Shown here: in pieces, positions 6,801-63,320 of the stretch
Layout: every line of letters begins with the position of its first letter
Numbering within the stretch: position 1 is the first letter of the stretch
Origin: Shinisaurus crocodilurus
Taxonomy: Eukaryota > Chordata > Lepidosauria > Squamata > Shinisauridae
Direction of reading: 5' to 3'
DNA length: 64,000 bases
Assembly (NCBI GenBank): GCA_021292165.1
Contig: CM037877.1
Coordinates: 309,322,834-309,386,833 of the forward strand
Made by a program: the position numbers and the translations under genes
Notes under the pieces: model-generated
What the model was told of the DNA's origin: nothing
The model's input: the letters and a program-made list of their open reading frames with translations, nothing else
Databases searched by the model: none

Positions 6801-7386
6801 TTGATTCTACAGGAAGCAAAAGCTGAGTGTAGCCAAACACGTACCCTGGATTTTAGGAAAGCCAATTTTAACAAACTCAGAACAATGATAAGTAAGGTCC
6901 CATGGCAAGCGACTCTCATGAGAAAAGGAGCCCAGGATGGGTGGGAGTTTTTAAAAAAGGAAATTTTAAAGGCACAATTGCAAACAAGTCCCACAAGGAA
7001 AAAAGGCAAAGGGCAACAGAAGAAGCCAATGTGGCTTCACAATAAACTCAAAGATGACCTGAAAACAAAAAAGGACACATAAAGGAAGTGGAAGGAGGGA
7101 CAGGCTACAAGGGAAGAGTACAGACAGGTAGCACAGAACTGCAGGAATAGTGTCAGGAAGGCTAAAGCTGAGAATGAGCTGAGGTTAGCGAGGGATGCTA
7201 AAAACAAGAAAGCGTTCTTCAAATACATGCACAGTAAAGACAGAGGAAAGAAATGGTGGTTCAACTACTGCAATGAGGATGGCAAATTGATAACAGAAGA
7301 CAAAGAAAAGGCAGAAGTGTTCAATTACCTACTTCGGCTCGGTCTTCTCCCAAAAGAGGGTCTATGACCCCCCTGGCAAACCTGAA

Positions 7387-8922
7387 GTGCAGACTGAAGG
7401 GGCAGGATTGCAGCTTGAGATTGATAGGCAAATGGTCAAGGAGCACCTGATTGCTCTGAACGAGTTTAAATCTCCAGGGCCTGACGAGCTGCATCCTAGA
7501 GTAATAAAGGAACTGGCAGAAGAACTCTCAGAACCACTGTCTATTATCTTTGAGAAATCATGGAGGACAGGTGAAGTGCCAGACGACTGGAGGAGGGCAA
7601 ATGTTGTTCCCATCTTCAAAAAGGGCAAGAAGGAGGAACCTGGGAACTATAGGCCAGTCAGTCTGACATCAATCCCTGGGAAAATTTTGGCGCAGATTAT
7701 AAAGCAGTCAGTCTGCAAGCACCTTGAAAACAATGCAGTGATTACTAGAAGCCAGCATGGATTTGTCAAGAACAAATCCTGCCAGACTAATCTGATCTCA
7801 TTTTTTGATCGGGTAACCTCCCTTGTGGACTGTGGGAATGCTGTGGACATCATATATCTGGACTTCAGCAAAGCTTTCAACAAAGTGCCTCATGATATCC
7901 TGATTAGCAAGCTAGCTAAGAGTGGGCTAGATGGAAGAACTATCAGGTGGATCCACAATTGGCTACAGAATCGGACTCAAAGAGTGCTTATCAATGGTTC
8001 CTTCTCAAACTGGGGAGAGGTAACGAGTGGGGTACCACAGGGCTTGGTCCTGGGCCCAGTGCTCTTCAACATTTTTATTAATGACTTGGATGAGGAGGTA
8101 CAGGGAATGCTTATCAAATTTGCAGATGACACAAAGTTGGGTGGAACAGCTAATACCCTGGAAGACAGAAACAAAATTCAAAGTGACCTCGATAGGCTGG
8201 AGCGCTGGGCCGAAAACAACAGAATGAAATTTAATAGGGATAAATGCCAAGTGCTGCACCTAGGGAGAGGAAACCAAATGCAGACTTACAGAATGGGGGA
8301 CACTTGGCTCAACTATACTACAAGTGAGAAGGATCTTGGAATTGTGGTAGATCACAAACTGAATATGAGCCAGCAATGCGATGTGGCTGCAAAGAAGGCA
8401 AATGCTATTTTGGGCTGCATTCATAGAAGTATAGCGTCCAAATCGCGGGAAGTGATAATTCCCCTTTACTCGGCACTGGTCAGGCCTCATCTTGAGTACT
8501 GCATCCAGTTCTGGGCACCACACTTTAAGAAGGACATAGATAAACTGGAGAGGGTTCAGAGGAGGGCAACAAGGATGATAAAGGGACTGGAAACAAGGCC
8601 CTATGAGGAGAGACTGAAAGAACTGGGCATGTTTAGCCTTCAGAAGAGGAGACTGAGGGGAGATATGATCGCACTCTTCCAGTACTTGAAGGGATGTCAC
8701 ACAGAGGAGGGCCAGGATCTCTTCTCGATCATCCCAGTTTGCAGGACATGGAATAATGGGCTCAAGTTACAGGAACCCAGATTCCACCTAAACATCAGGA
8801 AAAACTTCCTGACTGTTAGAGCAATAAGACAATGGAATCAACTACCTATGGAGGTGGTGGGCTCTCCCAGTCTGGAGGCATTCAAGGTGCAACTGGACAA
8901 TCATCTGTCAGGGATGCTTTGA
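7387..8922 (+). CDS. CR1 reverse transcriptase (ORF2 C-terminal part), open frame
   Basis: A single 511-codon frame covers the whole RT and C-terminal domain of CR1 ORF2. In order: the SPGPDELHPRVIKELA approach region, the fingers block NYRPVSLTSIPGKI, HGFVKNKSCQTNL, the palm block IIYLDFSKAFNKVPH with the first catalytic Asp, SGVPQGLVLGPVLFNIFIND, and the catalytic box FADD (residues about 244-247). It ends with [37 protein letters not shown] and HLSGML. The annotated Met is only the first in-frame Met after upstream stops, not a natural start, since the real ORF2 begins in the lost 5' part. PQGL replaces the PQGS of the 50.7-kb copy. The role would be target-primed reverse transcription of CR1 RNA in the nucleus. 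The element cannot be autonomous because its endonuclease is broken. Confidence 0.85.
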   Translation: MQTEGAGLQLEIDRQMVKEHLIALNEFKSPGPDELHPRVIKELAEELSEPLSIIFEKSWRTGEVPDDWRRANVVPIFKKGKKEEPGNYRPVSLTSIPGKILAQIIKQSVCKHLENNAVITRSQHGFVKNKSCQTNLISFFDRVTSLVDCGNAVDIIYLDFSKAFNKVPHDILISKLAKSGLDGRTIRWIHNWLQNRTQRVLINGSFSNWGEVTSGVPQGLVLGPVLFNIFINDLDEEVQGMLIKFADDTKLGGTANTLEDRNKIQSDLDRLERWAENNRMKFNRDKCQVLHLGRGNQMQTYRMGDTWLNYTTSEKDLGIVVDHKLNMSQQCDVAAKKANAILGCIHRSIASKSREVIIPLYSALVRPHLEYCIQFWAPHFKKDIDKLERVQRRATRMIKGLETRPYEERLKELGMFSLQKRRLRGDMIALFQYLKGCHTEEGQDLFSIIPVCRTWNNGLKLQEPRFHLNIRKNFLTVRAIRQWNQLPMEVVGSPSLEAFKVQLDNHLSGML

Positions 8923-9000
8923 CCTGGATTCCTGCACTGAGCAGGGGGTTGGACTCGATGGCCTTGTAGGCCCCTTCCCACTCTACTTTTCTATGATCCC

Positions 9001-22599: not shown

Positions 22600-25260
22600 C
22601 GGGGGCATGATACATAGCTGGGGGGGGGCGGGCTATGGATGCAAGGAGGGGCAGATTTGGAAGCGAAGAAGGGATAATTTTGCGACGAGCAACCAAGTGC
22701 TGCCGAGGCATTCGAGGTGCGCCGGAGCCGGCAGCAGCAGGCCGCGGCGCGTTCGGGGTTCCCTGCGCGGCGGGGCGCGCCGGCGGGGCACGAAGGACTG
22801 GCCTGGGGCCCACTCTATTTACGGCTGGGGGCAATTATTGGCCTCCGACAATATGGGGGGGGGCACTTCGGAGAAGGCTGCGGAAGGAAGGATCGGAGGG
22901 GCTCTTGGATCGGGGGGGGGCAGATTCGGGGCGCCGCTTGGGGACAAGGGGGCGCCCGGAGAGGGGCCGGGGCGCCGCGGGTCCCTCCTACCTGCTTGAA
23001 CTGCTCCTCGTAGGTCCACTCGTGCTGCTGCTGCTGCTGCGGCGGGGCGGGCGGCGGCGGCGAGGCGAGGGCGGCGGGGCGCTGCGGCTGGCGGGGCTCG
23101 ACGGCGCCTGCCTCCGCTCGCTCCTGCGCGTCCCCCTCTTCTTCTTCTTCCTCTTCCTCCCCCTCGTCCTCCTCCTCTTCCTCGTCCTCCTCCTCCTCGC
23201 CGCCGCCGCCGCCGCCCTCCTCCTCCTCGGGGCGGCGGCGGGCGGCGGCGTCCGGCGAGGGGCGCGGAGGGGGCGGCGGGGCGCGGGCCGAGGGCAGCCC
23301 CCCGCAGCGCCCGCCCGCCGGGAAGTGGCGCAGCGCCGGCGGGGGCGCCGTCGTGCCGGGGGCCGGGGGCGGCGGGGCGTGCGTCTCCGGCGCCGGGCGC
23401 GGCTGCCCGTGGTGGTGGTGGTGGTGGCGGTGCTGGTGCTGGTGCTGCTGGGCCGGGTGGCCGCTCGCCCCGGCTCCGGGCTGGGCCGCGTGCGCCCGGC
23501 GCAGCTTCTCCTCGAGGCGCGCCGCCTGCGCCCGCTGCAGGTTCTCCATCACCGCTTCCAGCCGGAGGCCCCCGGAGGCGCCCACGCCGCGCCCCGGAGA
23601 GCACGGCGGCGGCGGCGACGAGAAGGCGGTGGCAGCCTGCGGGGGGGGGGAGAGAAAAGACGGGGGGGTCAGAGGAGAAAAAAAGCGGAAAGGAGAGAGG
23701 GGGAGAAGGAAAGGCGCGGAGGAAGAAGGGGAGAAAGGAGGGAAGGAAGGGAAAAGGGAGGAAGAGAAGGGCCCGGGGGGGGGGCTAGGGAGAAAAGTGG
23801 AGCCCCCCGAAAAGGGAGAGGGGCAGAAACTGAAGGGGAAGGACCGGTGGGGGGGAACGAGCCCGGGGGGGGGCAGGAAGGAAGTCTCCCCTCCCCGGGG
23901 ACCCCGCTCCCTCTTGGGACGAGCGCGCAAAAAGTTTGCAGGGAAAGCAACATCGCCGCAAGGAAGCAAAACAAAAACACCCAACGCCCGCCCCCCCCCC
24001 CGGGGTTGGGAATTAAAAATTAAGGAAGGGCGAGCAGAGGCGCCTCGGAGTCCCGCGTCCCCGCTTGGAAACCCCCCACCTCGCAAGCCCTGAAATTGCG
24101 CCTCCGACATCCTGGGTCTGCGGAGACGGATTTGGGGGCGGGGGGGGGCCCACGTCGAGTACTTCAGAAGTTGCAACGCGCACTTTTCTTCCCAAATAAC
24201 CCCCCACCCAGTTTCTCCTCCCCTCCCCCCGCGGCTACTCCTTGCAAACATTTGCAAACGAATTGGTTTTTCCAGCGCAAAGCTCCCCCCACCCCGCGCG
24301 CGCGCGCGAGCAACGCTCCGGCAGCCCAGGAGAATGGCGATCCGGGGGAAGGCGCCGCTTACCAGGGCAGATTTGGCGGCGAGGCTGGTGTTTTCGACCA
24401 TGCTCGGCCTCTCTCGTTCCGCACCTGGCCGCGCTTGGCAAAAAAATAAAATCGAGCCGCGGGGCGGCGGGGGGGGGGCGGCTGGGAAAGGAGGCGCGGG
24501 TCGCCTCCTCGTCCGAATGTAATTTTATTCACGATCTACGCGGTGGGCAGGTCTGGCGAGGGCTGTCTGGGTGCTGCCCCCCTCCTCCTCCGCCTCCCCC
24601 CCCCCAGGCATGTGTCAGATCGGTCCCAAATATTTCTCCTTTTTTTGATTCTGCAGCTTTGAGGGCGAGATCAGACGTCGGGGGTCCTTTTTCTCGCTTT
24701 GCCCCCCGCCTCGCCCTCCCGTTCCTCCCTCCCCCCCCCCCGCTCTTTTTCTGCAACAAGTGGCAGCAGGCGAAGCAAGACTGACCCCTTCCTCCTCCTC
24801 TCCTCCTCCTCCCCCCCTCCCGAGATCAGCCGTCGCTGCGTCCCCATTTGCTAACAACACGTCAAGGGAGTGATAAATCGACTGGGCCGCCTCGGCTGGG
24901 CTGGCTGACAGCCGGAGGGGGAACAACTGCTCGGTGTTTCCAGTCCCCCGGCAGGGAGAGGAGATCCCAGCCCGGCAGGGGGAAGAAGAGACCGGCAGAC
25001 CCGCTTGCTTCCTACCTAGGCGCATCCATCCACCTGGGAAGACGCCCCGTCGAAAGCGACGGGACGGCCTTGCGCATATTTTTAAGTGAAAGCGACGGGA
25101 CTGCCTCCCGAGGGAGGATGCGGAGGGCGACCAGGAGGAGCATCATCCAGCTGCCAAAGGGCACCTCTTTGGTCTCCGGCCCTTTGGCAGCCAGGCGGCT
25201 TGCCCAGCGGGCGCGGCTCACCAAAGCTTGGCTGCTTTTTTCCCCTCCTCGCCCGAGTTC
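22600..25260 (-). promoter_or_regulatory. CpG island covering the ARID3-family promoter and first exons
   Basis: Base composition changes abruptly to very GC- and CpG-rich from about 22.6 to 25.26 kb, unlike both flanks, and it lacks transposons. The region upstream of the ATG (24402-25260) would hold the transcription start; I see no clear TATA box. Poly-pyrimidine and poly-purine runs are frequent. Inside it, GCTGCCAAAGGG (25150-25161) and its exact complement CCCTTTGGCAGC (25180-25191) form a 12-bp stem. Confidence 0.75.
22992..24401 (-). CDS. ARID3C: ARID3-family transcription factor, exons 1-2 (partial), probably ARID3C
   Basis: Exon 1 CDS is 24401-24363, coding MVENTSLAAKSAL with A at -3 and G at +4 of the start, then a GTAAGC donor. 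Exon 2 is 23636-22992, with a pyrimidine-rich acceptor ending GCAG and a GTAGGA donor. Both junctions are phase 0 and give 13 + 215 residues. Exon 2 has an N-terminal helix RLEAVMENLQRAQAARLEEK, a His/Gln run, Pro-rich segments, a long Glu/Asp tract, a Gln run, and ends in HEWTYEEQFKQ. That last block is the conserved lead-in to the ARID domain of ARID3A and ARID3C. Family members are nuclear AT-rich DNA-binding regulators. ARID, REKLES and later exons should lie at lower coordinates; I found none in 1-22990, so intron 2 is either longer than 23 kb or the exons escaped me. ARID3C is preferred over ARID3A because DCTN3 is the neighbour. The unspliced 528-codon frame reads through intron 1. Confidence 0.72.
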
Positions 25261-42999: not shown

Positions 43000-44088
43000 T
43001 AGATGAGAGACCCCCGCCCCGCCCTGCCCCACGCTAGAATTGCATGGCGAGTGGGGGAAGCAGCAGGCATGCCCCCAGTTTTTCCATTGGCTAGGGTGGG
43101 CACTGGGCAGACAGAGGAGGCGCCAGGCCACTGGGTAGTGTTGAGACAAGATGTTCAGGGGGGTGAAGAAGGTAAGTGCATCGTTCGGAAAACACCTCCC
43201 CATAATTCCAGTTCCGTGGGAGCTGATTGTGGCTATTCACTGGTGAGGAATATATACTCCGTGCATGTTCAGAGCTGCTGGACTGAAGATCCCTTCATAT
43301 GTTGACATCCCGAGCCTTGGAAAGTGGGCTGCAGAGCAGATAAGCCCTGTTTAGCTCTCCTTTGGGGAATGGCTTAGAACTGGTCACCATGATGCTGCTC
43401 CGTTTCACTGCCTCTTTTTTATGTTTCTTTTTATCTTACCTTTGTTGTTGTAATTTGATTTTTTTTAGTGTTATATCACATTACATATGCATTTTTATTG
43501 TGATTTTTAATGTTTTTCATATATATATATAAACTGCTTAGAGGTTTTATTATATTAAGCAGTATGCAAATACTCCAAAACAAAACAAATGACCACCAGC
43601 AGCACATCCAGTTTATAAATTTTATAGATTTAGAATTATATCTGTATATAATTATAGATAGATTTTAAAATGAGGAACATATCAGTATAAAACACCAGCT
43701 TCAGTCACTTCAGTTAGTATCTAAATAATAACAATAACAGAAGGGAAGGGAAAGAGGCAGACTAGGGAAGTCAGTCCTCTCTACTGGGGAAAAATAAAAA
43801 CCAACTCAAAATTATAATATTTGCTGTGTGTGTGTTGTTTTTCTTTTCTGAAAAAAGTAGAGAAGTTTTAATCATGGCATCTTCTCCTCCACCCCCACAC
43901 CGAACTCTCTTCCCCAGTTCCACAAATAAATCCACTTCACAGATTTTACATTTCGGTTCATGTCTTTATGGATTTTTAATACATTTTAAATGATTAAAAA
44001 AAAAATTGTCATCACTGCAGAGTGCTTGGATATTGGGTGCTATTGGATATTAAGCACCCAAGCACTCAATATTGGATATTGAATGCTT
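43000..44088. other. Non-coding, AT-rich, no gene
   Basis: A probable LINE 3' end lies near 43390-43585 (atatatataaactgcttaga, then 'tatgcaaatactcc'). A short direct repeat of 'attggatatt' near 44032-44092 precedes the CR1 insertion. Nothing else recognised. Confidence 0.35.
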
Positions 44089-44666
44089 GGGAAATTTTTG
44101 GAGCAGATTATAAAGAAGTCAGTCTGCAAGCACCTTGAAAACAATGCAGTGATTACTAGAAGCCAGCATGGATTTGTCAAGAACAAATCCTGCCAGACTA
44201 ATCTGATCTCATTTTTTGATCGGGTAACCTCCCTTGTGGACTGTGGAATGCTGTGGACATAATATATCTGGATTTCAGCAAAGCTTTCGACAAAGTGCTT
44301 CATGATATCCTGATTAGCAAGCTAGCTAAAACTGGGCTGGACAGAACAACTATCAGGTGGATCCACAATTGGCTACAGAATTGTCAGACTCAAAGAGTGC
44401 TTATCAATGGTACCTTCTAAAACTGGGGAGAGGTAACGAGTGGGGTACCACAAGGCTCGGTCCTGGGCCCGGTGCTCTTCAACATTTTTATTAATGACTT
44501 GGAAGAGGAGGTGCAGGGAATGCTTATCAAATTTGCAGACGACACGAAGTTGGGTGGAACAGCTAATACTCTGGAAGACAGAAACAAAATTCAAAGCGAT
44601 CTCGATAGGCTGGAGTGCTGGGCCGAAAACAACAGAATGAAATTTATTAGGGATAAATCCCAAGTG

Positions 44667-45479
44667 CAGGGCCGGCGCTACCGCTAGGCAGACCCAGGCG
44701 ACTGCCTAGGGCGCATGGCGGAAGAGGGCGCAGAGTTTCTGCGCCCCTTCCTCGCCTACGGCGCGCTCCTGCCCTGCCTGCCGCCGCCGCCGCCGCTGCA
44801 CCTCCCTCCGGAGCCAGAGGGACGGAGGGAGCGCTGCAGGAGCCGCCACCCACCCCCTCGCTCCCTAGGGGCGAACCTGAGCGCTTGCGGCGGCGGCGGC
44901 GTCTTCCCCCTGCGGAGAGCGCGCGCACGCAATGAGCGAGCCTCGGGAGAAGAAGAAGCCTGCGGCTTCGCCCCAAGGCGGCTGCCGGTGCGCCGGAGGC
45001 GCGGGCAGGGCCCCCGTCATCCTCTCGCTGCTCTTCTCACTCCTCTCGGTGGGCGCCTGCTTTTTGCTCAGCGCCAAGACCTCCAAGCTGCAGGGCCGGC
45101 TGGTGGCCCTTGCGGAGGAGTTGGCCAGCCACGCTTGGAGCCCGGGAGACCAGCTCCGCGCCGAGCCTTTGCTCGCCGTGCTGCAGCCTCAGGTGGACCC
45201 TTCTGCAGGAGGTGAGAGACCTTCGCCCGCCCACCAACCACCTACCTACCTTCCCGTCCTAAAGCGCGGGGGTCCCATCGCGTCGGAGGAGATGGCGGCA
45301 GCAGCAGCCAGCAGCGGGGGCGGGGGGAAGGTAGGTGGTGGTGGTGGCGGCGGCGGCGGCGCGGGGGGGGGGCGTTGCAGAGCAGGGCTGCTTTGCTCCG
45401 GAGCCCCCCCCCCACGGCACGAGGGGGGGCGCTAAATATAATTTGGCCTAGGGCGCCAAACAGCCCTGCACCGTTCCTG
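44667..45479. mobile_element. Non-autonomous hAT carrying a captured gene fragment (Pack-hAT candidate)
   Basis: The left end CAGGGCCGGCGC and right end CCGTTCCTG (complement CAGGAACGG) are imperfect inverted repeats. The next inner blocks also pair loosely: GCCTAGGGCGC at 44705-44715 and GGCCTAGGGCGCC near 45445-45457. It sits in a CR1 copy with CCCAAGTG (44659-44666) and GCCAAGTG (45480-45487) flanks; uninterrupted CR1 has GCCAAGTG there, so the left base has mutated. The 0.7-kb interior is CpG-rich, unlike the surroundings, and contains an exon-like ORF with a splice donor. No transposase is encoded. Confidence 0.82.
44932..45211 (+). pseudogene. Captured first exon of a type II membrane protein (membrane-collagen-like)
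   Basis: An ATG at 44932 opens a frame of 93 complete codons, followed by CAGGAG|GTGAGA, a good splice donor at 45212. The N-terminus MSEPREKKKPAAS is charged. A hydrophobic segment VILSLLFSLLSVGACFLL (about residues 29-46) would cross the membrane as a signal anchor. Then comes SKLQGRLVALAEELASHAW, a heptad-like stretch. The layout and the LLSVGACFLL...LQGRLVALAEE pattern recall the first exons of membrane collagens, most like COL23A1, but I am not certain of the gene. No collagen repeats lie in the element. Because it sits between hAT ends inside a LINE, I read it as a duplicated fragment, not the parental locus. Confidence 0.55.
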
Positions 45480-46253
45480 GCCAAGTGCTGCACCTAGGGA
45501 AAGGAAACCAAATGCAGAGTTACAGAATGGGGGACACTTGGCTCAACAATACTACAAGTCAGAAGGATCTTGGAATTGTTGTAGATCACAAACTGAATAT
45601 GAGCCAGCAATGCGATGTGGCTGCAAAGATGGCAAATGCTATTTTGGGCTGCATTAATAGAAGTATAGCTTCCAAATCGCGGGAAGTGATAATTCCCCTT
45701 TACTCGGCCCTGGTTAGGCCTCATCTTGAGTACTGCGTCCAGTTCTGGGCAGCACACTTTAAGAAGGACGTAGACAAATTGGAGAGGGTTCAGAGGAGGG
45801 CAACAAGGATGATAAAGGGACTGGAAACAAGGCCCTATGAGGAGAGACTGAAAGAACTGGGCATGTTTAGCCTTCAGAAGAGGAGACTGAGGGGAGATAT
45901 GATCGCACTCTTCCAGTACTTGAAGGGATGTCACACAGAGGAGGGCCAGGATCTCTTCTCGATCATCCCAGTTTGCAGGACACGGAATAATGGGCTCAAG
46001 TTACAGGAACCTAGATTCCACCTAAACATCAGGAAAAATTTCCTGACTGTCAGAGCAATAAGACAATGGAACCAACTACCTAGGGAGGTGGTGCCACAGG
46101 CTCTCCCACTCTGGAGGCATTCAAGGTGTGGCTGGACGGCCATCTGTCAGGGATGCTTTGACCTTGATTCCTGCATTGAGCAGGGTGTTGGACTCGATGG
46201 CCTGGTAGGCCCCTTCCAACTCTACTTCTCTATGATTCTGTTATTTTATTTTA

Positions 46254-46795
46254 AGAAGAGCACAAGATGTGACACGTTTCCACCTGCCGTCATGAAGAGG
46301 AGCAAAGGAGAAGGCCGTCGATATTCCGGGCCAACGCTATGTGCTGATGGATGCTGCAGGTAAATCGCTAGACAGCTGCTGCAGACAGACAGATAGCTGC
46401 AGTAGATATCCAGATAACTGTAGACTAAGGGATACAGGAGATATATAGACACTTCACGGAGAATCCGGGGAGAGCTCTGAGAGACGGATAGCCCTGTAAG
46501 CAAATCAATGGCTACTGTACACAGGAAGACAGCAAGACAAAGCAAGGGGGAGAGAGAATATGTTTTGAGGAGCAAGGCGGCGCATTTGTTCCTGTCGTCA
46601 CAGGGAGGGGAAGCATCAGAGAAGTAGGGGGTGGCCTTACTTTTTGTTCCACACCTAATTCCAGCTTATGCCAGAGTACTACAGTACTCCTGTCTGGATG
46701 GTGCATCTTTGTAGAACTCAGGTTTTGCTCATTAGTTCTCCTTTTGAAAGAAATAGAACAATGGCAATTCTAGTCCTTCGCTCAGGGAAGGAAGG
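46254..46795. other. Non-coding tract, nothing recognised
   Basis: It has several 'gacagatag/agatag'-rich lines near 46370-46490. No gene seen. Confidence 0.35.
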
Positions 46796-46797
46796 AA

Positions 46798-47209
46798 CCG
46801 GGCCGGCCCTTCCATGAGGCAGAGTGAGGCAGCCTCCTCAGGCGGCAGAATTTTGGTATCGTGAAAAGGCAGCAAATTGTTCGTTATTAATGCCTTATTA
46901 TTGGGTTGGACTTTGAGTGGACCTATTGAAATCAATGGGACTTAACTAACTTCAGTCCCATTGGTTTTAATGAGTCTGCTCTAAGTATGACTAAGGTTGG
47001 ATCCAGCCCATTTTATTTATTTTTTTAATGCCAGCGGGAGAGAGGTGCTCGTGGGATTTTCTGCCTCGAGTGCCAAACCCAAGTACTATTTATTTATTTA
47101 TTTATTTATATTTGTTAATTGCTCATCTGGCCGGTCACTATGCACCTTGACCTGGGGGGGCAGCATTTGCTGTGCCGCCTGAGGCAGCAAATGTCTTGAG
47201 CCAGCCCTG
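46798..47209. mobile_element. hAT MITE related by its ends to the gene-carrying element
   Basis: Ends CCGGGCCGGCCC and AGCCAGCCCTG (complement CAGGGCTGGCT) form an inverted repeat of the CAGGGCYGGC type. GGAAGGAA lies at 46790-46797 and again at 47210-47217, although the right flank is a GGAA repeat. Inside are paired GGCAG-rich blocks (AGGCGGCAGAATTTT and GCCGCCTGAGGCAGCAAAT), a family C relic at 46915-47010 and an L2 3' end at 47085-47148. Confidence 0.7.
47085..47148 (-). mobile_element. L2 LINE 3' terminus nested in a hAT MITE
   Basis: TTTA repeats and GCTCATCTGGCCGGTCAC equal the inverted end of the L2 3' UTR; it stops after about 60 bp. Confidence 0.65.
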
Positions 47210-50655: not shown

Positions 50656-50661
50656 CAAAAC

Positions 50662-51799
50662 TTTCGACAAAGTGCCTCATGATATCCCGATTAGCAAGCT
50701 AGCTAAAAGTGGGCTGGACGGAACAGCTATCAGGTGGATCCACAATTGGCTACAGAATCGGACTCAAAGAATGCTTATCAATGGTTCCTTCTCAAACTGG
50801 GGAGAGGTAACGAGCGGGGTACCACAGGGCTCGGTCCTGGGCCCAGTGCTCTTCAACATTTTTATTAATGACTTGGATGAAGAGGTACAGGGAATGCTTA
50901 TCAAATTTGCAGATGACACAAAGTTGGGTGGAACAGCTAATACCCTGGAAGACAGAAACAAAATTCAAAGCAACGTCGATAGGCTGGAGCGCTGGGCCGA
51001 AAACAACAGAATGAAATTTAATAGGGATAAATGCCAAGTGCTGCACCTAGGGAGAGGAAACCAAATGCAGAGTTACAGAATGGGGGACACTTGGCTCAAC
51101 TATACTACAGGTGAGAAGGATCTTGGAATTGTGGTAGATCACAAACTGAATATGAGCCAGCAATGCGATGTGGCTGCAAAGATGGCAAATGCTATTTTGG
51201 GCTGCATTAATAGAAGTATAGCTTCCAAATCGCGTGAAGTGATAATTCCCCTTTACTCGGCACTGGTTAGGCCTCATCTTGAGTACTGCGTCCGTTCTGG
51301 GCAGCACACTTTAAGAAGGACGTAGACAAACTGGAGAGGGTTCAGAGGAGGGCGACAAGGATGATAAAGGGACTGGAAACAAGGCCCTATGAGGAGAGAC
51401 TGAAAGAACTGGGCAATTGGGCATGTTTAGCCTTCAGAAGAGGAGACTGAGGGGATATAGGATCACACTCTTCCAGTACTTGAAGGGATGTCACACAGAG
51501 GAGGGCCAGGATCTCATCTTGATCATCCCAGTTTGCAGGACATGGAATAATGGGCTCAAGTTACAGGATCCTAGATTCCACCTAAACATCAGGAAAAATT
51601 TCCTGACTGCCAGAGCAATAAGACAATGGAATCAACTACCTAGGGAGGTGGTGGGCTCTCCCAGTCTGGAGGCATTCAAGGTGCTGCTGGACAGACATCT
51701 GTCAGGGATGCTTTGACCTGGATTCCTGCATTGAGCAGGGGGTTGGACTCGATGGCCTTGTAGTCCCCTTCCAACTCTACTTTTCTATGATTCTATGTG
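50662..51799 (+). mobile_element. CR1 LINE, 5'-truncated in the RT domain
   Basis: It begins at the TFDKVPHDI block. The frame runs through SGVPQGSVLGPVLFNIFIND and FADD to a one-base deletion near 51292 (LEYCV then RSGQHTLRR). A duplicated 'ctgggcaattgggcatg' stretch follows near 51410. The second frame, 51417-51716, ends RHLSGML, and the 3' UTR ends ttctatgattctatg. Confidence 0.9.
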
Positions 51800-57609: not shown

Positions 57610-59322
57610 TTATTTATTTATTTCTTTATTTATTATATTTATCAATCGCCCATCTGGCCGGTCACCCGGCCACCCTGGGCGATGTACAATTAAAATACAA
57701 CAAAACAACACAATAAAATATAATAATTAAAACAATATAAAAAATTCTCATTAAAAACCTAACCCACCCCATATTCCCGCCTGAACAGCCATGTTTTTAA
57801 TGCACGGCGGAAGCTCATCACGGAGGGGGCATGGCGAAGGTCACTAGGGAGGGAGTTCCATAATGTGGGGGCCGCCACAGAGAAGGCCCTCTTCCTAGTC
57901 CCCACCAGCCTGGCTGCTCTGGCTGATGGGATAAGGAGAAGGCCGTCCGTGGCAGACCTTGTTGAGCGGCCTACTTGATGTTGCTGGAGGCGCTCCTTGA
58001 GATAAGCTGGGCCGGAGCCGTGTAGGGTTTTAAAGGTCAAAACCAACACCTTGAATTCGGCTCGGCAAGCAACTGGTAGCCAGTGCAACTCATTAAGCAC
58101 TGGCGTGATGTGATCACGCCGGCGGCTGCCCTTAATCAGGCGAGCCGCCGCGTTCTGTACCAGCTGAAGCTTCCGGACCGTCTTCAAGGGTAACCCCACG
58201 TAGAGCGCATTACAGTAGTCTAGGCGAGAGGAGACCAAGGCATGAACCACTGATGGGAGCAGGTGATTAGGAAGGTAGGGGCGCAGCTGCCGTATCAGAT
58301 GGAGTTGATACAGCGCCGCCTGGCTCACAGCTGCCACCTGAGCCTCCATGGACAGCTGGGAGTCTAGAATGACCCCCAAGCTGCGGACCTGGTCCTTCAG
58401 GGGTAGATGTACCCCATTCAGCACCAGGTCAACATCCCCTAACCTTCCCTTGTCCCCCACCAGAAGTACCTCGGTCTTGTCGGGGTTCAGTTTCAGCATG
58501 TTCCTTCCCATCCAGCCAGCCACTGACTCCAGGCACTTGGACAGGGTCTCAACGGCCAACCTCGGTGAGGACTTAAAACAGAGGTAGAGCTGCGTGTCAT
58601 CCACATACTGATGACACTGCACCCCAAACCTCCTGATGATAGCTCCCAGCGGCTTGAGGTAGATGTTGAATAACATCGGGGAGAGGATGGAACCCTGCGG
58701 CACTCCACAAGTGAGCAGCCGAGGGTCCGAAGCCTCCTCCCCGAGAACTACCCTCTGATACCTTCCAGAGAGGAAGGACCGGAACCACTGCAATACAGTG
58801 CCTCCCAAGCCCAACCCCTCCAGACGGTCCAGGAGGATACCGTGGTCAACGGTATCAAAAGCCGCTGAGAGATCGAGGAGGACTAGAAAGGAGCATTCGC
58901 CCCTATCCAAAGCCCTCCTCATATCATCCACCAAGGCGACCAAGGCCGTCTCCGTCCCATGTCCAGACCTGAAGCCCGACTGGCACGGATCTAAATAATC
59001 GGCTTCATCCAAGTGTGCCTTCAACTGAGCACCCACCACCCGCTCGATCACCTTGCCCAGAAATGGTAAATTGGAGACTGGGCGAAAGTTGTTTAAATCC
59101 TGGGGATCCAAGGAGGGCTTCTTTAGAAGCGGTCTTATTACTGCCTCCTTGAGGGCTGATGGCATCACTCCCTCCTCGAGGGAGGCATTCACCACCGCCT
59201 TGATCCCCTCACCCAGTCTCTCCCTGCAGCTCATGATGAGCCAGGACGGGCAAGGGTCAAGCAAGCAGGTGGTCGGCCTCACAGATGAAAGCACCTTGTC
59301 CACTTCATCAGAAGGAAGAAGC
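57610..59322 (-). mobile_element. L2 LINE, long copy with open RT frame
   Basis: The 3' tail TTTATTTATTTCTTTATTTA lies at the left and the 5' truncation is near 59322, within the LPSDEVDKVL region. It is nearly identical to 40705-42402 on the other strand. The 40.3-kb copy extends about 380 bases further 5'. Confidence 0.92.
57759..59303 (-). CDS. L2 reverse transcriptase (ORF2 C-terminal part), open frame
   Basis: A 514-codon frame starts at an internal Met, MDKVLSSVRPTTCLLDP. It contains NFRPVSNLPFLGKVIE, LLDLSAAFDTVDH, CGVPQGSILSPMLFNIYL and a catalytic box that reads QYVDDTQLY, where the 40.3-kb copy has QYADD. YVDD and YADD both occur among reverse transcriptases, so this need not kill activity. 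It ends LKTWLFRREYGVG. Other differences from the sister copy are few, for example LNELHW for LKELHW, and a small insertion giving ARLVGTRKRAF for ARPSRKRAF. It lacks the endonuclease. Confidence 0.85.
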   Translation of the reverse strand: MDKVLSSVRPTTCLLDPCPSWLIMSCRERLGEGIKAVVNASLEEGVMPSALKEAVIRPLLKKPSLDPQDLNNFRPVSNLPFLGKVIERVVGAQLKAHLDEADYLDPCQSGFRSGHGTETALVALVDDMRRALDRGECSFLVLLDLSAAFDTVDHGILLDRLEGLGLGGTVLQWFRSFLSGRYQRVVLGEEASDPRLLTCGVPQGSILSPMLFNIYLKPLGAIIRRFGVQCHQYVDDTQLYLCFKSSPRLAVETLSKCLESVAGWMGRNMLKLNPDKTEVLLVGDKGRLGDVDLVLNGVHLPLKDQVRSLGVILDSQLSMEAQVAAVSQAALYQLHLIRQLRPYLPNHLLPSVVHALVSSRLDYCNALYVGLPLKTVRKLQLVQNAAARLIKGSRRRDHITPVLNELHWLPVACRAEFKVLVLTFKTLHGSGPAYLKERLQQHQVGRSTRSATDGLLLIPSARAARLVGTRKRAFSVAAPTLWNSLPSDLRHAPSVMSFRRALKTWLFRREYGVG

Positions 59323-59995
59323 CTTCCTCATCATATTCTCTCATCATAGCGAAGAAGCAAAACAAGTGAGATCAAGCAAGCATGCACCCCCCTGCAAAAT
59401 GTTGATTTATTCCAAACAGGTGACTGCTTTGGTCAATTAATGGGAGGGGGGAGCCAAGCAGGGGGTAAAGGGATACACGTCTTACGACTAACCTTGATTC
59501 ACAATGGGCTGTGTGAGCTTTCAAGTTTCACGGAACTCTTCGTCTAGTAGGATGTTAAACAAAAGAAAAAAAATGGTGAAGGGAGAAACTGATAAAAGCT
59601 GGTGTAGGATACCGGGTAGGAGAGTGACTGCTTCTTCCTGTGCATGTTGCTGCTCAGAAATAAGCCCCACAATAAGGCTATGCCTAGATTAGCGCAGCTT
59701 GAGCTTACGAATCAGGTTCAAACCTCTCCTCACCATCCGTCAAATTCACTAGGTGGCCCCCAGCAACTCTCTCTCTCCCCCCCCCCGCCTCTTCTGTTGC
59801 CTCACACCGGTAATACGGGGAAATGCAACACTGACCTACCCTACAGGGCTGTTGTAAGGATTATTCAGATTATGCCTTTGAATGCCCTAAAGCACTACAT
59901 AAATGCTTAGAATGATTGGTATTAAGAAATTGAATAAGCCTAATGCTGAAGCGCAGTCAGAATCAAGGCATTTTCCTCATCACCACTATAACGCC
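59323..59995. other. Non-coding tract, nothing recognised
   Basis: A possible relic of a tRNA-type SINE lies near 59800-59905 ('taatacggggaaatgc', 'ctacagggctgttgtaagg'). No gene seen. Confidence 0.35.
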
Positions 59996-61179: not shown

Positions 61180-61730
61180 GGGCGCTTCTTTCAGCGCCCT
61201 GCCGGAAGAAGGGGCCTGTGAAACCCGGAAGCGCCCACCGCGTATCTCGACTCCTAGGAGCCACCCCACCCCCGGCCGGCTCCCTCCGAGGCCTCTCAGC
61301 AGGGAACAAGGCCTCACAGTCTCCATAGCAACCCCCTGGGTTCCCTATGGCAACGCTGAAGCCAAGGAAAGGCGCTTCCGGTTCTTAAGAGGAGGGACTT
61401 CCGGGCTTTCCGACTCCCTTCCAAGTGCTTACCATAGAGCTTCGACGCAGGTCTCCATGGAGACAGAACCACGCGACATGGCAGCCCTTCCTCATCATTT
61501 CCGTTCTACGATTGAACAGGGCTTTACCCCTCCCTCTCACGTCCAAATTCAAAACACAGAGAAGCTTTCACCATAGAGATGCTAAAGGGAATAGAGCGGC
61601 GCCGCTCTGCGTTTCAATTCCTAACTCTATGTTCCTCCACCCCCTCTTCTCCGGCCCTCCTACTTCCGGCCACGTCGTTCCCGATTGGTTCCCCTTCTCG
61701 TAGACTTCCGGTGCCTCGGCTGTGGGCAAG
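61180..61730 (+). promoter_or_regulatory. DCTN3: DCTN3 CpG promoter with repeated ETS-type sites
   Basis: The tract is GC-rich and TATA-less. It repeats CTTCCGG several times: about 61375 (GCGCTTCCGG), 61398 (GACTTCCGGG), 61662 (TACTTCCGGC) and 61704 (GACTTCCGGT). It also has an inverted CCAAT box (GATTGG, 61683-61688). The start codon lies in CAAGATGGCGG, a YY1-type initiator motif common at housekeeping genes. Protein binding is inferred from motif matches. Confidence 0.65.
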
Positions 61731-63320
61731 ATGGCGGCGGCGGCGGCGGCGGCGGAGGTGCGGCAGCTGCAGGGCCGGCTCGACGCCTTGGAGGAGCGCG
61801 TTTTCGGGGCGCCCGCAAGGACCGAAGGCGCGGGGGGTCCCCGGAAGGTAACGGCTTCCCGGCCCGGCCGCCTCCTCACCATCGCTCTTGCTGTTAGTTA
61901 AGCGGCCCCAAAGTGCTGGGGCGGAGCGCCCGCAGCCCGCCCAGACGTTGCTGGACTACAACTCCCATAATCCCTGCCCGTTGGCCGGGCTGGCTGGGGC
62001 TGATGGGAGTTGGGAGACCAACCAGATCTGGAGGGCCGCAGGTGCCCCACCCTTGCAGTAGGCGCTGTATGGGAGGCATCTCGGGCTGATGATCTTCAGA
62101 GAGGGAATAAAAAACCCCAAGATGGGAAAAAACGAGGCGGGCAAGGAGGGCGCCGAAACTAAATTAGAGCCAGTGTGGTGCAGTGGTAAACTGTGATAAA
62201 TAAATAAAAGTAAATCCGCTGCAGCGCAGTCCCGAGCAGAAGCAGCGTCCCCGCTAATAGCAGTGGGGTTTACTCTCGGGCAGGCACGCATAAGGTTGCT
62301 GCCTTGAACTGAGGAGCCACGAGACGACGGAGGAAAATAATTTAGCCCGATTTCAGAGCCCGATGTCAGCTGGCCACCAATCCCGCAGGCTGAGGAAAAA
62401 GCACAAAGCCACAAAATGAAATTCAAAAATAGAGAACAAGCAGAACACACAGATCAAGAAGGTAAATCTGCAGAAATCAAAAGAAGGAGCAGGGTACACT
62501 TTAAAAGTAAAGCCGGTCAAAACAAAACATAATGACAAGGTAATGCTGCCCCTCCCCTGCTCTCATCTGCCTTAGCAACACATGGCCCATTTCCCATAGC
62601 AATAAACTCCTCAATAAGAGCACTTGCCCCCTTTTAATGCATCTTCCCCCATTAGCAGTGCTGGTGTCTTTGCAAGGGCGCATTTCTTTGCTTTTGATTA
62701 TAACCTCTTGTTTCTCAAAGGCTTCTGGAAAGTAATAATTGTTATCTATGGGCCTCTGGAGGCCTTCTCTGCCTCTGAAGGGATATTGGGAGGCTACAGG
62801 GCAGAACAATATGGTTATGGAGTTGGTTGTGTCCTTTTTTAGCCACAGTGGAACAATCCTGTGAGGTAGTTTAGGCCAAAGATAGTGAGTGGCCCAGGGT
62901 AACCCAGCAAGTTTTGTGGCGGAGCAGAGATTTGAACCTGTATCTCTTCCGTCTTAAGTCCAGCACTAGCCGCTACCCAACACAGGTTACTCTTACATGC
63001 TTCTTCACTGCTATGAAAATGGCTCCCCTGTAGAGAGAACCTGGCAGGTAGTTGAACACAAATGGGTCCCTGTTCTAAACCAGCAGGCAAAGCACAGTTG
63101 CACCAAAACCTGCTCACATTTAAATTTTCTGCTTCCTGTGTATGTTCCATGTATTGCTAATTCTGGAGTTGCAGTTCAAAGTGTCTTGTATGTAGTTGAT
63201 CTGCTTAGTTGTTAACAGTATCATTTCTCTTCTAGATAGCAGATGGCATGGTCAAAGTCCAGGTGGCTTTGGGGCACATTGCAAGCAAAAGAGAGAGGGT
63301 TAAAATTCTTTTCAAAAAAA
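61731..63320 (+). CDS. DCTN3: Dynactin subunit 3 (p24), exons 1-2, partial
   Basis: Exon 1 CDS is 61731-61847 (39 codons), with A at -3 and G at +4 of the start. It codes seven alanines, then [20 protein letters not shown], ending RK with donor GTAACG, phase 0. Exon 2 is 63236-63320, preceded by TTCTCTTCTAG. It codes [20 protein letters not shown] and RVKILFKK plus one base, then donor GTGAGT, phase 1. The block [26 protein letters not shown] is the hallmark of dynactin p24. The family protein is about 186 residues, helical, and sits in the shoulder/projecting arm of dynactin, the dynein activator. The remaining exons lie beyond 64000. Intron 1 is 1388 bp and contains a MITE and SINE scraps. 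The poly-Ala run is a GCG repeat. Confidence 0.93.
61940..62060. mobile_element. Palindromic MITE in DCTN3 intron 1
   Basis: GGACTACAACTCCCATAATC pairs with GGCTGATGGGAGTTGGGAGA across a GGCCGGGCTGGC centre. The outer ends are diverged. It is of the 27083 type. Confidence 0.6.
62850..62995 (-). mobile_element. CORE-SINE/MIR-like relic in DCTN3 intron 1
   Basis: 'aatcctgtgaggtagtttagg', AGTGAGTGGCCCAGGGTAAC, 'gcggagcagagatttgaacc' and 'ccagcactagccgctaccc' are the inverted core, B-box and A-box regions of an old tRNA-derived SINE. Confidence 0.6.

Follow-up and report, generated by a model that had tools for sequence, protein, structure and literature searches.

An 813-bp insert at 44667-45479 splits one CR1 LINE copy in the analysed window, a 64,000-nucleotide stretch of the Shinisaurus crocodilurus genome, and is very probably a Pack-hAT, i.e. 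a non-autonomous hAT element that lies inside the CR1 and carries a collagen first exon, by whichever route that exon was acquired. A sequence-only reading had proposed a hAT-type insertion in CR1 carrying the CpG-rich first exon of a gene, and the empty sites, the element ends and the identity of the exon agree with this proposal. The features are as follows.

44080..44666, + strand: 5′ part of the host CR1 LINE (94.0% identity to 7671-8253, 92.8% to 50656-51040, 93.6% to 61032-60830)
44659..44666, + strand: left 8-bp target-site duplicate, CCCAAGTG, with one mismatch to the empty-site GCCAAGTG
44667..45479, + strand: probable Pack-hAT element, 813 bp, interrupting the CR1; ends 9/12 complementary, flanks 7/8
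44667..44714 (right limit approximate), + strand: hAT 5′ end, CAGGGCCGGCGC plus a subterminal stem; 32/48 identical to 46798-46845
44932..45211, + strand: first coding exon of a type XXIII-like transmembrane collagen by sequence match, captured from the ATG to ...LLQE, with a 2-bp deletion after PQVD; 91% amino acid identity to Varanus P0001
45212..45425, + strand: probably the first part of parental intron 1 (gtgaga...), GTGAGA following GAG; right cargo limit approximate
45426..45479 (left limit approximate), + strand: hAT 3′ end, ...GCACCGTTCCTG; alignable, as reverse complement, with the 3′ end of 46798-47209
45480..45487, + strand: right 8-bp target-site duplicate, GCCAAGTG, as in the empty sites of CR1 copies
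45480..46260, + strand: 3′ part of the host CR1 LINE (93-95% identity to copies at 51033, 8246, 60837 on the − strand and 5217)
46798..47209, + strand: second hAT-like element, 412 bp, without GC-rich cargo; ends CCGGGCCGGCCC...GAGCCAGCCCTG, related to those of 44667-45479
Element ends: CAGGGCCGGC...

Insertion site in the host CR1 LINE

Both CR1 flanks were colinear with three site-crossing CR1 copies in the same window (7671-8997 on the + strand, 50656-51794 on the + strand and 61032-60082 on the − strand; 93-95% identity per half), and in 3/3 of these the empty site AAATGCCAAGTGCTGCAC ran without interruption and contained a single GCCAAGTG. Around the insert the 8-mer occurs on both sides, CCCAAGTG and GCCAAGTG matching at 7/8 positions, and the 8-bp target-site duplication of a hAT element is thus present. 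Omitting the 813 bp together with the left 8-mer restored the CR1 sequence at the site, which fixes the coordinates exactly and indicates that the insertion is younger than its host CR1 copy. The same bounds inside a CR1 LINE, and the reduction of the two 8-bp flanks to one copy in intact CR1, had been claimed beforehand, and both were reproduced from the three empty-site copies. Longer CR1 matches to the flanks of the insert were 92-95% alike, and an RVT_1 (Pfam) reverse transcriptase domain was detected in the long ORFs at 7294-8919 (+) and 57762-59327 (−), which probably belong to non-LTR elements.

Element ends and a related element nearby

Short terminal inverted repeats beginning with CAG are characteristic of the hAT superfamily. 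The insert begins with CAGGGCCGGCGC, which is complementary at 9/12 positions to its other end (reverse complement CAGGAACGGTGC), and both repeats begin with CAG. Such ends were rare in combination with matching flanks: among 113,141,700 start-end pairs lying 200-1999 bp apart in the window, only 44 combined ends complementary at 9/12 positions or more with flanks matching at 7/8 or more, and 44667-45479 was the only one of the 44 to have a CAG start and a CTG end; about half of the other 43, as judged by eye, were simple or GC-rich repeats. The single-stranded 44667-44770 segment gave a more stable fold than 200/200 shuffles, and no fold advantage was found for the 3′ end at 45426..45479 (171/200 shuffles equally stable).

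The same list of 44 pairs yielded the second hAT-like element at 46798-47209, whose flanks GGAAGGAA match at 8/8 positions but sit in a GGAA repeat, so that the duplication is weak evidence in this case. For the first 48 bases of the insert, 46798-46845 was the best other site on both strands of the window (32/48 identical, the next site reaching 27/48). Gapped alignment of the two 5′ ends scored 49, compared with a maximum of 32 over 500 random pieces of the window, and that of the two 3′ ends scored 29, a value reached by 2/500 random window 45-mers. The interiors of the two elements have just short matches in common and are otherwise unrelated; an imperfect inverted repeat was observed at 46910-46986 inside the second one. 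Chance resemblance of the ends was rejected on the grounds of the window-wide scan for ends plus flanks and of this second element.

The hAT-like ends claimed for the insert were therefore borne out by their complementarity and their rarity together with the flanks. As to whether such ends form a family, related ends do exist at 46798-47209, 1.3 kb downstream of the insert and missed by the sequence-only reading, but just two members of this family were seen, in one window. Searches with two end patterns in viral contigs and with one in prokaryote genomes returned 0 matches each and are uninformative on lizards.

A transmembrane collagen exon as cargo

The left hAT end takes up ∼48 bp of the element and the right one ∼54 bp, which leaves ∼0.7 kb (44715 to ∼45425) between them, of which 280 bp are gene-derived by sequence match. 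The interior (44715-45430) has 73% GC and a CpG observed/expected ratio of 0.78, versus 0.38 and 0.25 in the CR1 flanks and 0.43 in the window, in line with the very GC-rich, CpG-island interior described earlier; such a ratio would suit an insert that is young or unmethylated. An ATG at 44932, a hydrophobic segment and a donor GAG/GTGAGA with 45211 as the final exon base were located in it, just the start codon, membrane segment and consensus donor already noticed from the letters. The GC-rich stretches at 44715-44931 and beyond 45217 are candidates for a parental-gene origin as well. The 5′ leader upstream of 44932 had a weak similarity to P0016 in a search run without filtering, in which low-complexity matches were also numerous, and beyond the exon six relatives (P0001, P0005, P0008, P0009, P0010 and P0017) read E-V in 6/6 and E-V-R in 3/6.

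Searching 5.8 billion proteins with the translation from the ATG at 44932 gave 15 matches out of 35 candidates, and all 15 represent the same exon. The best match to the protein of 44932-45211 was P0001 of Varanus komodoensis with 91% amino acid identity, and the others came from Hemicordylus capensis (three isoforms), Pantherophis guttatus, Candoia aspera, Sphaerodactylus townsendi, Lerista edwardsae, Podarcis muralis, P. lilfordi, Phrynocephalus forsythii and Anolis carolinensis, plus three contig proteins. By source label, seven are collagen alpha-1(XXIII) chain-like, four uncharacterised or hypothetical and three nameless, and the Varanus protein is named collagen alpha-1(XXV). In 8/15 matches (P0002, P0003, P0004, P0006, P0007, P0012, P0014 and P0015, three of them isoforms of one species) the exon is continued by exon 2, EKL.EGLAKLRTAR, followed by SEC(R/H)CPP and in some by GPPGRRGKPGRRGEPG, i.e. 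the collagenous exon 2-3. The same exon followed by further exons, which the check named for capture looked for in related lizards among other places, was found in other squamates: 15/15 matches have the exon and 8/15 run on into collagenous exon 2. A second search with an X-padded query identified three proteins among 1631 candidates, from Podarcis raffonei (labelled engrailed-2-like), a contig and a parrot (labelled pro-resilin-like), and exon 2 was also present in two of the three (P0016 and P0018, from Podarcis raffonei and the parrot).

The first search reached proteins of ∼51-163 aa and the padded one those of ∼216-688 aa, lengths of 164-215 aa falling in neither, and no full-length collagen with this exon was found among the 1631 candidates of ∼216-688 aa in the padded search. 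The XXIII-like collagen models with the exon were short (115-162 aa in the first search, 236 and 261 aa in the padded one), for which these length limits are part of the explanation. The type II transmembrane collagens include XIII, XXIII and XXV, and the last two are recorded for Anolis in the available part of PMC4678570. The features of such a first exon recur in 44932-45211, namely the tail, the anchor LSLLFSLLSVGACFLLSAKT, LQGRL.AL.EELAS, PQVD.LLQE and the donor, the exception being the 2-bp deletion before LLQE. Judged by these protein matches, the cargo is the first exon of a squamate type XXIII-like transmembrane collagen, an identity that had escaped the sequence-only reading. Pfam returned 0 families for the exon and two relatives. 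Two kinds of match were taken as chance and set aside, namely 19 PDB sequence matches to the exon (best E 0.14) and a viral-contig match to the exon protein over 24 residues (58% identity, E 7e-6 relative to candidate stretches only).

Like the squamate type XXIII-like first exons (P0001-P0017), the window copy has the start, the anchor and the heptad-like stretch; unlike in the collagen genes, the exon stands alone, with 2 bp deleted and no exon 2 found after it. When the 15 proteins were compared with the window by tblastn, nothing else credible appeared (other hits had E 0.06 or weaker), and neither exon 2 nor a second copy of the exon was found in the window, that is, over 44.7 kb upstream and 18.5 kb downstream. 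The donor is kept and exon 2 does not follow it, which indicates that genomic DNA was copied. A retrocopy or a LINE-transduced fragment, as the location inside a LINE might suggest, is hence scarcely credible in place of DNA-transposon cargo: the donor is unspliced, exon 2 is missing, the 3′ end has no poly-A tail, and hAT-like ends and an 8-bp duplication surround the exon. The retrocopy was rejected specifically on the retained donor and intron-side bases.

The reading frame of the exon stays open over 89 residues, and Varanus has the same residue at 81 of these positions. Directly before the donor, all of P0001-P0017 (17/17, 13 of them from named squamates) have D-x-(L/I/V)-L-(Q/R)-E after PQV, and the window copy, GTGGACCCTTCTGCAGGAG, is 2 bp short of them, a deletion that is deduced by comparison with the proteins of other species and not with parental DNA, and that had likewise been overlooked before. 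LLQE and the donor consequently lie in a shifted frame (ORF 45110-45262) and the parental frame is broken. Two changes, E61A and R67H, are private to the window copy and fall at columns where 13 distinct relatives all agree; for this count four duplicate relatives had been dropped and the parrot left out. With 0 to 7 private changes per relative (7 in Anolis, 4 in Podarcis), two are unexceptional. Faster evolution of the window copy was not seen, the ratio of its changes to those of Varanus ranging from 2:4 to 5:1 depending on the outgroup. Decay of the copy would thus be indicated mainly by the 2-bp deletion. In-frame splicing to the EKL.EGLAKLRTAR exon 2, as in a functional collagen gene, does not fit this copy, whose frame is broken and for which no exon 2 was found in the window.

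These observations also bear on the reading of the exon as that of a genuine collagen gene around which mobile elements have inserted. The 89 open residues with 81/89 as in Varanus would suit it, but the CR1 halves join at one 8-bp site once the 813 bp are removed along with one 8-mer, no exon 2 was found within 18.5 kb, and the frame is broken. The meeting of the CR1 halves at one 8-bp site and the failure to find exon 2 in the window led us to reject a real gene, which we regard as highly improbable.

It is also unlikely, though less so, that the insert acts as a mobile first exon, with a CpG island still serving as promoter and the exon spliced to downstream exons into a new membrane-anchored chimera. 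The CpG observed/expected ratio of 0.78 and the retained start codon, anchor segment and donor fit such a role, and 5/8 human exonic Pack-TIR duplications are transcribed according to the available text of PMC8277862, but the parental frame is broken directly before the donor. Moreover, no downstream exon was recognised with collagen, ARID and SIGMAR1 queries, with Pfam on some ORFs or with Rfam, and the one recognised host-gene exon, which is ARID3C-like, lies 21 kb away on the opposite strand. No downstream gene to which the exon could splice was found in the window, whose annotation is non-exhaustive. The most likely state of the element today is that of a passenger without protein function.

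The ARID3C-like exon is a first coding exon at 22992-23555 on the minus strand, which ends EWTYEEQFKQ followed by a GT donor, lies in a 68% GC island (22.6-25.2 kb) and, apart from the insert, is the only host-gene exon that was recognised in the window; its transcription runs in the direction away from the insert. A padded protein search with it gave five ARID3C proteins among 7985 candidates scored, with Rhineura first by E-value and, by aligned identity, Elgaria (114/154) followed by Hemicordylus (107/149). Together with the Varanus match of the collagen exon, the ranking by identity weakly points to an anguimorph lizard as host. An approximate ARID domain query did not reveal the following ARID exon in the window. 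Another CpG-rich stretch was observed at 61501-62000 (64% GC, CpG observed/expected 0.93), to which an approximate SIGMAR1 query had no match, and Rfam at gathering thresholds returned 0 matches in the window.

Possible routes of capture and animal Pack-TIRs

According to the Pack-hAT reading, a non-autonomous hAT DNA transposon would have gained at most ∼0.7 kb of host DNA, including, from a type XXIII-like transmembrane collagen gene, a first exon rich in CpG and probably the beginning of the intron after it. The exon may have been captured at another locus, through template switching in the course of repair or replication, before the loaded element moved into the CR1 with transposase provided by another hAT element; none of the ORFs within 44667-45479 was matched to a transposase. 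Alternatively, within the same reading, an empty hAT could have entered the CR1 and a later internal break could have been repaired by copying the distant collagen exon, so that the loaded element never moved; we consider this gap filling quite possible, and transposition with cargo is mildly favoured over it.

The published survey of animal genomes bears on both routes. It lists 370 Pack-TIRs in 55 of 100 genomes, 208 of them hAT (Tan et al. 2021, PMC8277862), including 38 in American alligator and 25 in western clawed frog. As reported in its available text, only four animal Pack-TIRs (1.4%) are multicopy, gap filling was inferred for most of the single-copy ones, and an unloaded element occupied the orthologous outgroup site in 91/97 primate cases (PMC8277862), all of which speaks for gap filling; the same ends and target-site duplication are equally expected from it. 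However, gap filling prefers nearby donors, and none was found in the 64-kb window. Since the distance to the parent is <15 kb for 56.9% of animal Pack-TIRs and large for the multicopy ones (PMC8277862), the failure to find a parental copy over 44.7 kb upstream and 18.5 kb downstream leans mildly towards transposition with cargo. Pack-TIR breakpoints lie preferentially towards the interior of the element, with a median gap of 4.6% of the element (PMC8277862), whereas here hAT ends of just ∼48 and 54 bp are retained, a difference that weighs little against gap filling.

For an animal Pack-TIR, the same source takes an unambiguous same-genome parent with at least 90% DNA identity and 100-bp flanks without transposons (PMC8277862). 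In the insert, TIR-element ends enclose ∼0.7 kb of interior, within the 100-5000 bp of non-transposon DNA looked for in such elements, and with the donor kept and no exon 2 downstream in the window it is not an intronless retrocopy. Sequence comparison thus supports its assignment as a hAT-class Pack-TIR, with a parental gene known through proteins of other species alone.

No report of this particular element was present among the top-ranked literature matches, in which PMC8277862 was the relevant Pack-TIR paper. The sequence-only reading had considered gene capture by TIR elements much less documented in vertebrates, an assessment to be corrected, as capture by hAT elements is better documented than that in PMC8277862. 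One animal example in its available text is Pack-hAT-N8_XT of the western clawed frog, with a 291-bp piece of the CAPSL 5′ UTR. Like the animal hAT Pack-TIRs described there, the insert has hAT ends, a target-site duplication, a DNA-level copy of a 5′ gene part and a vertebrate host; unlike them, it has a cargo of up to ∼0.7 kb versus their median of 224 bp, a whole signal-anchor exon with its donor and a lizard host (PMC8277862). With the plant Pack-TYPE elements, including Pack-hAT, it shares the nature of a non-autonomous DNA transposon carrying coding DNA, as outlined in the accessible part of PMC8903248, but differs from them in its animal host and in the one loaded copy seen here.

The element is therefore a further case of the gene shuffling already catalogued in animals. 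We hold it to be quite improbable that a loaded hAT in several copies spreads a working CpG-island promoter and a membrane-anchor first exon through this lizard genome, and so gives other genes new promoters and N-terminal anchors. The insert provides a clean nested example from a lizard, a DNA transposon with a complete 5′ coding exon plus CpG-rich DNA, and the exact CR1 empty site together with the identified cargo gene makes copy number, donor distance and transcription addressable in one assembly, three quantities that would separate transposition with cargo from gap filling.
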